Part shown: positions 19,810 to 23,014 of the stretch, piece after piece | Layout of the letters: each line of letters starts with the position of its first letter | Numbering within the stretch: position 1 is the stretch's first letter | Origin: Borrelia hispanica CRI | GTDB taxonomy: Bacteria; Spirochaetota; Spirochaetia; Borreliales; Borreliaceae | Direction: 5' to 3' | Assembly: GCF_000500065.1 (NCBI RefSeq) | Contig: NZ_AYOU01000121.1 | Coordinates: forward strand, 248,001 to 312,000 | Length of the DNA stretch: 64,000 nt | Made by a program: the position numbers and the translations under genes | Notes under the pieces: model-generated | What the model was told of the DNA's origin: nothing | Databases searched by the model: none | The model's input: only the letters and a program-made list of their open reading frames with translations

Positions 19810-22056
19810 ATGAAAAGAATATGGGCACTTTCTAGTTTATTATTTGTTTTTTTAAATATTTTTACTTTTCATGCTAGAGAGGTTGATAAGAAAAAATTAA
19901 AAGATTTTATTAATATGGATCTTGAGTTTGTCAATTATCGAGGTCCTTATGATTCTACAGACACGTATCAACAGATATTGGGTATTGGTGAATTTTTGGC
20001 TAAAAATTTAGTTGATAATAAGGCTAACTATTACAATAAATATTATGTTAATAGGCATATTGATCGTGAAGATGAAAAAAGTAGTTCTGATGTTTTTGTT
20101 ATTGGTTTAAATTCATCTCTTGATAGTATTTTAAATCTTAGAAGAATACTTACAGGATATTTGATGGAAGGTTTTAAATACAGTAAAGAAAGTGCAGAAT
20201 TGCTTGCCAAGGCTATTACGATATATAATGCTGCTTATCGAGGTGATTTAGATTATTATAATAATGCTTATATTAATTCTTCTCTTACAGATTTAAATAA
20301 GCATAATGTAGGGCTTTCAAGAGTTTATAGTCAATGGGCTGGAAATACTCATATTTTTATTCCTCTCAAAAGAAATATTTTGTCAGGAGACATTGAATCA
20401 GATGTTGATCTTGATAAAATAGTTACGGAGAGAGTAGTAGCCTCTCTTTTAGGTGAAAATGAAGAAGTTGGTACAAATTTTGCAAGAGATTTAACAGATG
20501 TTCAAGATGAAATGCGTGATGTTGATCAGAAAAAAATTGATATTGAATCTAATACTTTAAAGAGTCTTGATGATGAATTGAATGAAACCATTGATAATCT
20601 GAGAGAACAACTTGAGAAAGCTACAGGTGATACTGAGAAAAAAGAAATTGAGAAACAAATTGATGATAAAGTGTTTGAAAGAGATGTTTTAAAAGGTAAA
20701 ACAGAAGAACTTAAAAAGTCACAAAAAAAGTTAGATAGTTCTCAGGAAAAATTGGATAAGCAGAGGGGTATAGTAAAGGATAAGATACAAGAAAATATTG
20801 ATAAGAGTAATAAAGATAAAAACTTACCAAAGCCTGGAGATATAACTTCTCCAAAAGTAGATGAAAAATTGCAATTAACCGAGACTATTGAAGATTTAGA
20901 AGAGCAACTCAATAAAGCTACTGATGATACTGAAAAGAAAGAAATTGAAAAAAAAATTGATGATAAGATAGTGCAAAGAGATGCTTTAGAGGATAATAGA
21001 GATGAGCGTAAAGAGGTAGATAATGGTAGCTTGGATAAACAAAAAGATCCAGTTAGGAATAGGTTGCAAAGAAATGTTGAGCGCAAAAATCAAAATAATA
21101 ATTTGCCAAAGCCTAAAGCTATATCACAAAATAATGGAAAATCACAGTTATCTAAGGATTTAGCACAACAACTTAAGAAGGCTATTGATGATGCTGAGAA
21201 AAAAGAAATTGAGAAACAAATTGATAATAACATATTTCAAAGAGATGCTTTAGAGGATAATAGAGATGAGCGTAAAGAGGTAGATAATGGTAGCTTGGAT
21301 AAACAAAAAGATCCAGTTAGGAATAGGTTGCAAAGAAATGTTGAGCGCAAAAATCAAAATAATAATTTGCCAAAGCCTAAAGTTACATCACAAAATGATG
21401 AAAAATTAAAATCAGTTGATGAATTGAAAAGACAACTTGAAAAAGCTACATCAGATATTCCAAAAAATTCTCCTAATATTGCAAATAAGCAATCTTTGCA
21501 AGAATTGACCGATAAGTCTTTAAATGCTAAAGAAAAATTGGTTCAATCTGAAGATGTGAATAAATTGTCCACTGAAGATAAGGACAAAACGCCTGTATTT
21601 TTGGAAATTTTAAATCCTAGTACTAATTTAGGTGTTCTTAGGTTAATTGATTCAGATAAAGAGAAATTAGATAAAAATTATCAGTACGGTATTAGGAGGT
21701 ATGGGGTTTATGAGAGGAAAGATGATTTTGTTGCTATAAAACTTTGTTCAGGTATTGCAAAACTTCAATTACTTAGCAAATCAGAAAATTTAAAAGTTAA
21801 ATCTCAAGCAGGTTTTGAATTGAGTAGGGATTCGTCTCTTTATGTTGATTCTGAAATGATTTTAGTAGTTGTTAAAGATAATAATGCTTGGAAATTAGCA
21901 AAGTTTTCTTCAAATGATTTGAGTAAATTTGTTCTTTCTGAAGATGAAGTTTTACCATTTACAAGTTTTACTGTTAATGCAGGTCATATTTATTTACAGG
22001 ATGCGTCTAAGTCAATTATTACTTTAGATGTAAATACTTTGAAAAAAACAAATTAA
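19810..22056 (+). CDS. P83/100 antigen with tandem internal repeats
   Basis: The classic Borrelia p83/100 (P93) serological antigen, 748 residues, with an N-terminal signal peptide (to about residue 20). Residues 30-220 are a conserved globular part. Residues 230-560 are a highly charged coiled-coil region rich in Lys, Glu, Asp and Gln. It is built from units of about 88 residues beginning near EKKEIEKQIDD and ending near NNLPKPK. Two units share an identical 145-bp stretch (20974-21118 and 21238-21382), and an older unit precedes them. Residues 590-748 form a C-terminal beta-rich domain. The ATG follows AGGGGAG. Function is unknown; it is thought to be periplasmic or envelope-associated. Confidence 0.93.
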   Translation: MKRIWALSSLLFVFLNIFTFHAREVDKKKLKDFINMDLEFVNYRGPYDSTDTYQQILGIGEFLAKNLVDNKANYYNKYYVNRHIDREDEKSSSDVFVIGLNSSLDSILNLRRILTGYLMEGFKYSKESAELLAKAITIYNAAYRGDLDYYNNAYINSSLTDLNKHNVGLSRVYSQWAGNTHIFIPLKRNILSGDIESDVDLDKIVTERVVASLLGENEEVGTNFARDLTDVQDEMRDVDQKKIDIESNTLKSLDDELNETIDNLREQLEKATGDTEKKEIEKQIDDKVFERDVLKGKTEELKKSQKKLDSSQEKLDKQRGIVKDKIQENIDKSNKDKNLPKPGDITSPKVDEKLQLTETIEDLEEQLNKATDDTEKKEIEKKIDDKIVQRDALEDNRDERKEVDNGSLDKQKDPVRNRLQRNVERKNQNNNLPKPKAISQNNGKSQLSKDLAQQLKKAIDDAEKKEIEKQIDNNIFQRDALEDNRDERKEVDNGSLDKQKDPVRNRLQRNVERKNQNNNLPKPKVTSQNDEKLKSVDELKRQLEKATSDIPKNSPNIANKQSLQELTDKSLNAKEKLVQSEDVNKLSTEDKDKTPVFLEILNPSTNLGVLRLIDSDKEKLDKNYQYGIRRYGVYERKDDFVAIKLCSGIAKLQLLSKSENLKVKSQAGFELSRDSSLYVDSEMILVVVKDNNAWKLAKFSSNDLSKFVLSEDEVLPFTSFTVNAGHIYLQDASKSIITLDVNTLKKTN
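20974..21118 (+). repeat. Perfect 145-bp direct repeat in p83/100, copy 1
   Basis: Identical base for base to 21238-21382, at an offset of 264 bp (88 codons), so the frame is kept. It encodes residues about 389-436 of p83/100. Sequence flanking the identical block remains similar but has diverged, for example GCT against GTT right after it. Confidence 0.95.
21238..21382 (+). repeat. Perfect 145-bp direct repeat in p83/100, copy 2
   Basis: Second copy of the block at 20974-21118, encoding residues about 477-524 of p83/100. The flanks differ while the core shows no substitution, which points to recent duplication or gene conversion rather than ancient repeat conservation. Confidence 0.95.
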
Positions 22057-22396: not shown

Positions 22397-23014
22397 ATGG
22401 TTAATATTGATTTAATTGTAGATGAAACTTTATCTCGCTATCCTTATGTAAAACCTTTTTTAACTTTTAAAAATAATTACGAACTTTTAATAATGGTGAT
22501 TTTGAGTGCAAGAACGACTGATAATATGGTTAATAAGATTGCACCTAAACTTTTTGATAAATATGGTGATTTTAAAAGTTTGGCATGTGCTGATTTAGTA
22601 GATGTTGAAAAATTAATTTATAAATTAGGATTTTATTCAAATAAATCTAAAAATATTATAAATTGTGCACGAATGATTTTAGAAGATTTTAATGGTATTA
22701 TTCCAGATAATATTTTTGATCTTATATCTTTGCCAGGAGTAGGTAGGAAAACAGCCAATGTTATTCTTGGTGTTGTTTATAAAAAGCCAGCTATTATTGT
22801 AGATACTCATTTTAGTAGAGTTGTGATTAGACATGGAATTACTTTTGAGAAGACACCTTTAAAAATTGAATTAGATTTAAGAAATAGAATACCGGCTGAT
22901 AAACAATATAGATTTTCTATGGCTATTAATAGGCATGGAAGAGATATTTGTACATCACGTAGTCAAAATTGTAAGAATTGTTTTTTAGAAAAATTTGCAC
23001 CAAGACTTGTTTGA
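22397..23014 (+). CDS. nth: Endonuclease III with only three of four Fe-S cysteines
   Basis: DNA glycosylase/AP lyase that removes oxidised pyrimidines, 205 residues. The helix-hairpin-helix LPGVGRKTANVILG supplies the catalytic lysine, and VDTHFSRV the catalytic aspartate, so the active site is intact. The C-terminal iron-sulfur loop has C185, C192 and C195 with the C-x6-C-x2-C spacing of E. coli Nth. The expected fourth cysteine six residues later is alanine (A201, codon GCA at 22997-22999), and the protein ends four residues after that. ATG start at 22397, with no clear ribosome site. It is convergent with the permease genes. Confidence 0.93.
   Translation: MVNIDLIVDETLSRYPYVKPFLTFKNNYELLIMVILSARTTDNMVNKIAPKLFDKYGDFKSLACADLVDVEKLIYKLGFYSNKSKNIINCARMILEDFNGIIPDNIFDLISLPGVGRKTANVILGVVYKKPAIIVDTHFSRVVIRHGITFEKTPLKIELDLRNRIPADKQYRFSMAINRHGRDICTSRSQNCKNCFLEKFAPRLV

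Follow-up and report, generated by a model that had tools for sequence, protein, structure and literature searches.

Bacterial endonuclease III (EndoIII, Nth), as represented by the structures from E. coli (PDB 2abk) and Geobacillus stearothermophilus (1orn/1p59), has an HhH-GPD fold, a catalytic Lys and Asp, and a C-terminal loop in which the motif C-x6-C-x2-C-x5-C supplies the ligands of a [4Fe-4S] cluster. Among HhH glycosylases, “clusterless” MutYs have been cited (PMC11078426), and the depositors of a solved MutYX structure (PDB 8uuc), an adenine glycosylase of another branch, state that the cluster is absent. An EndoIII with three of the four ligands has been made in the laboratory: the C199S mutant of DrEndoIII2, altered at another Cys than the one missing from Borreliaceae Nth, has comparable activity although it is unstable, and it still carries mostly [3Fe-4S] (PMC9268735). 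For B. burgdorferi, a cell content of under 10 iron atoms and a lack of Fe-S proteins have been reported, along with the use of zinc-thiolate proteins (PMC3147059). The first-pass annotation of this locus remarked that Borrelia is known for doing without iron in many enzymes. Both the iron-poor state of Borrelia and the existence of clusterless MutY/HhH glycosylases are already known.

The nth gene described here lies in a window of 64,000 nucleotides from Borrelia hispanica CRI (the whole stretch of DNA that was analysed), and its features are listed below in window coordinates.

22397..23014, + strand: nth, endonuclease III, an open reading frame of 205 aa with an ATG start and a TGA stop
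22730..22750, + strand: HhH hairpin LPGVGRK with the catalytic K118 (22748-22750), conserved without exception in 36 Borreliaceae and in 34 outgroup homologues
22802..22804, + strand: catalytic D136, invariant in 36/36 Borreliaceae and 34/34 outgroup homologues
22949..22951, + strand: C185, first cluster-ligand position, kept in 36/36 Borreliaceae (codons TGT 25, TGC 11)
22970..22972, + strand: C192, second cluster-ligand position, kept in 36/36 Borreliaceae (TGT 27, TGC 9)
22979..22981, + strand: C195, third cluster-ligand position, kept in 36/36 Borreliaceae (TGT 34, TGC 2)
22997..22999, + strand: A201 (GCA), aligned with the fourth cluster Cys (E. coli C203), non-Cys in 36/36 Borreliaceae

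With its predicted HhH-GPD fold, its hairpin Lys and its Asp, the protein is a member of the Nth/HhH-GPD family. It matches Pfam HhH-GPD (1.1e-25), and NCBIfam TIGR01083 (nth) is by far its best NCBIfam family (1.7e-59), despite a score of 200.7 bits that lies just under the cut-off of 211.7. EndoIII structures are matched both by sequence and by fold, and the length is that of bacterial EndoIII. The AF2 model (pLDDT 94.6; TM 0.91 to 1p59) predicts a full EndoIII fold, and the secondary structure is the same in a second model, of a Borreliella Nth. Across the cluster loop, pLDDT is 84 and 82 in the two ten-residue blocks concerned, and the loop geometry in the model is partly inherited rather than independent, because most rows of the alignment are four-Cys relatives. 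The phmmer match to MutYX (8uuc) stops at query residue 148, ahead of the cluster loop. The closest relatives, from two Borrelia genomes, are 98% and 97% identical across Nth. A search of 36 Borreliaceae genomes gave one HhH-GPD protein per genome, namely this Nth; MutY is absent from these genomes, and the possibility of another, intact Nth or MutY encoded elsewhere was rejected on this basis. Ahead of the gene, on the opposite strand, are tRNA-Pro and tRNA-Arg, and it is followed by convergent genes that by eye are permease-like. Also upstream, at 19810-22056, is a 748-aa protein with repeated charged segments, which we take to resemble the p83/100 antigen family.

The C-terminal loop reads C185-TSRSQN-C192-KN-C195-FLEKF-A201-PRLV. 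In the alignment to E. coli Nth (2abk), C185, C192 and C195 fall on C187, C194 and C197, and the next residue of the motif falls on C203. The first-pass annotation had noticed the E. coli spacing of the three Cys, the Ala at the fourth position, the end of the protein four residues later with no Cys nearby, and the retention of the catalytic Lys and Asp; the open reading frame and the 2abk alignment confirm all of this, in that only PRLV follows A201, the only other Cys are C64 and C90, and both catalytic residues are present. The complete C-x6-C-x2-C-x5-C motif is absent from all 36 Borreliaceae, which have A, S, V or T at the fourth position. The set of cluster Cys is thus incomplete (one of four is missing), which is a mark of clusterless HhH glycosylases, but the motif is not lost in full, and the Borrelia enzyme differs from MutYX in that it keeps the loop and three Cys. 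A second difference from bacterial EndoIII concerns the Lys-Pro pair that relatives have in the cluster loop, as ARKP (K/R in 28/34, P in 32/34); it is also lost in Borreliaceae, where position 189 is S/N/A/G (mostly S/N) and position 190 is K/V/Q/A/E/L (mostly K/V).

An intact nth open reading frame was found once in each of the 36 Borreliaceae species, with Ala at position 201 in 29, Ser in five, Val in one, Thr in one and Cys in none. In a column-by-column alignment, the same column is Cys in all 34 best homologues from other spirochaete families, and a scan of named genomes found the strict C-x6-C-x2-C-x5-C spacing in 73 of 74 further non-Borreliaceae homologues, whose organisms partly overlap those of the 34. 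The 74th, from Rectinema subterraneum, has a few extra residues between loop Cys two and three and keeps four Cys. Since Cys201 is missing across the family and present in its relatives, the sequences are most simply explained by one old loss on the Borreliaceae stem, before the Borrelia/Borreliella split; the alignment across Borrelia, Borreliella and other spirochaetes that had been proposed as a check thus places the loss most simply on the family stem (Cys lacking in 36/36 versus 0/34). The earlier suggestion of another ligand finds no universal candidate. A new terminal Cys (C205, the last residue) occurs in 17 of the 18 Borreliella (loci L019-L036), is Tyr in the remaining one (L025) and is absent from Borrelia, and one species has lost D/E183. 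A displaced fourth ligand was likewise rejected, as no Cys, His, Asp or Glu after C195 is invariant across both genera.

The Fe-S machinery of the family was surveyed in the same 36 genomes. The SufB/SufD core (SUFBD) was found in 0/36 Borreliaceae versus 14/14 control genomes, and A-type carriers in 0/36 versus 9/14. NifU_N matches in Borreliaceae are limited to a SufU-like open reading frame of about 132-145 aa (at most 32 bits), which adjoins a SufS-like cysteine desulfurase and, in the two loci examined, retains the known SufU positions (CGD, SGC and the third Cys). SufU is a sulfur-transfer protein that acts with SufBCD in cluster assembly; here, the desulfurase and the SufU-like protein may perhaps serve tRNA thiolation instead. 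In a sample of 98 Spirochaetia, members of other families that lack SUFBD carry a strong NifU/IscU match, the one exception being a fragmentary draft (G434, 80% complete) that has neither. The loci concerned, together with those of a second former Fe-S protein, are as follows (L, locus; C, contig).

L075:88-1356 and L075:1423-1824, + strand: SufS-like and SufU-like pair, no SufB/SufD partners
C164:130678-130884: SufU-like gene in the genome of the window
L071:877-2025, - strand: PsgB, with homologues in 35/36 Borreliaceae
C121:173690-174820: PsgB in the genome of the window

The only radical-SAM homologue in Borreliaceae is HemW-like, and its CxxxCxxC motif is cut to the first Cys in all 30 loci. 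It corresponds to NCBIfam TIGR04419 (“HemN-related non-iron pseudo-SAM protein PsgB”; 591 bits), an existing entry, and the loss of its motif is therefore already known. PsgB and Nth have undergone the same kind of change in the same genomes, in that a homologue of an Fe-S enzyme was retained after loss of the cluster motif. PsgB differs in belonging to an unrelated family, in having lost two of three Cys, and in being broken by stops in one Borrelia genome (G006) and not found in another (G010). Because PsgB retains one of its cluster Cys, a kept Cys need not imply a kept metal.

By the Nei-Gojobori method (ratio of means), nth has a dN/dS of 0.156 in Borrelia and of 0.114 in Borreliella, values that place the gene under purifying selection. 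For the C-terminus (the last 31 residues, 175-205), the ratio is 0.26 in Borreliella, where the region is looser, and 0.12 in Borrelia, where it is not. Position 201 is fast (2.6 times the gene mean, 86th percentile) and now drifts among small residues, and F196, P202 and R203 are newly invariant in Borreliaceae. H180, five residues before C185, is invariant as well, and is already found in 28/34 of the four-Cys outgroups. C185, C192 and C195 are unchanged although their codons switch synonymously between TGT and TGC. If the Cys evolved at the average rate of the rest of the loop, the probability that all three stay unchanged would be near 4e-5; by a cruder column count, in which 9 of 23 loop residues are invariant, a random triple would be invariant with a probability of 0.047. 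The strength of this result varies with the yardstick, so that retention of the three Cys hints at a function but does not prove one.

Judged from these sequence comparisons, Borreliaceae Nth is probably a working endonuclease III that gave up its [4Fe-4S] cluster; we infer the absence of the cluster in the protein from the missing Fe-S machinery and from the literature. The fourth ligand Cys was most simply lost once, in the Borreliaceae ancestor, while the catalytic Lys and Asp, the predicted HhH fold and purifying selection are kept. The enzyme would fold and act as a bifunctional pyrimidine glycosylase/AP lyase in the cluster-free state. The C-terminal loop would then be held by local packing (F196, P202 and R203) plus C185, C192 and C195, which may act as structural thiols or, with perhaps similar likelihood though more speculatively, form a Zn2+ site. 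Observations against a cluster-free enzyme include the invariance of three ligand Cys across 36 species despite synonymous codon changes, a pattern that a cluster still in place would readily explain, and the raised C-terminal dN/dS of Borreliella. The first-pass annotation had placed the enzyme “on the way to, or already at” cluster independence. Independence is well supported by the context (no SUFBD or A-type carriers, a lost radical-SAM motif and the published scarcity of iron), but “on the way” is better replaced by already there at the family stem, as no Borreliaceae retains the fourth Cys.

Coordination of Zn2+ or another non-iron metal by the three remaining Cys, with a single ion in place of the cluster, would itself be a cluster-free state, so that the two proposals overlap; we regard it as a tentative refinement, somewhat less likely to be right than wrong. 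The putative site would consist of the three Cys plus H180, water or a carboxylate. The invariance of the Cys despite varying codons fits such a site, as do the invariance of H180 in Borreliaceae, the zinc-thiolate proteins used by B. burgdorferi (PMC3147059) and the occurrence of zinc sites in HhH glycosylases (the zinc linchpin of MUTYH, which lies elsewhere in that protein; PMC12938805). However, H180 is common in four-Cys relatives and predates the Cys loss, and no newly acquired residue of Borreliaceae is an obvious fourth zinc ligand. In its fullest and similarly tentative form, the proposal is that the Fe-S site of the ancestral Borreliaceae EndoIII became a site in which three Cys bind a metal other than iron, most likely zinc, and still keep the DNA-contacting loop in place, and that this change was one step in the elimination of Fe-S clusters across the family.

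It is unlikely that Nth still holds an Fe-S cluster on three Cys, either as [3Fe-4S] or as a [4Fe-4S] whose fourth ligand is not a Cys, is exogenous or, in Borreliella, is C205. Such an arrangement is chemically possible, because DrEndoIII2 C199S forms [3Fe-4S] and stays active (PMC9268735), so that a cluster is compatible with three ligands; the invariance of the three ligands and the C205 of most Borreliella are also in its favor. But it fits badly with genomes that have no SUFBD, no A-type carrier and no recognised IscU/NifU scaffold beyond the SufU-like protein, and with the few iron atoms reported per cell (PMC3147059). Moreover, the two genera have no fourth-ligand candidate in common, and fast-evolving position 201 has no consistent Asp, His or Ser replacement.

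Very improbable is a decaying nth whose product is dispensable or inactive. B. burgdorferi nth mutants have no ROS/RNS phenotype and no sensitivity to peroxide or NO donors (PMC5013056). They also remain able to infect mice and to switch vlsE (PMC2779866), so that the physiological importance of Nth seems modest; the less constrained C-terminal loop of Borreliella also fits a decaying gene. Against this stand the intact open reading frame in 36/36 species, the low dN/dS (about 0.11-0.16) and the invariant catalytic residues. A sequencing or assembly error in this genome, which a fourth Cys in other Borrelia would have suggested, can be dismissed because no other Borrelia has that Cys and the position is non-Cys in 36 independently assembled genomes of the family.

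Fixation of the three-Cys state in the sole Nth of an entire family appears to be unreported. In the open-access literature, we found no mention that Borrelia Nth lacks this ligand, nor any paper that brings together Borrelia, endonuclease III, 4Fe-4S and cysteine, and the available portions of the literature on BB0745 do not discuss the cluster; earlier notice in subscription papers is possible. The role of the [4Fe-4S] cluster of EndoIII is disputed, being described as structure, as DNA search by charge transport, or as neither, and Borreliaceae offer a natural test, as the enzyme was kept through the whole Borrelia-Borreliella radiation despite the loss of a ligand. If their enzymes cut damaged DNA normally without the cluster, then the cluster would not be needed for catalysis. 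The family also shows how a nearly iron-free lineage edits its few former Fe-S proteins one at a time.
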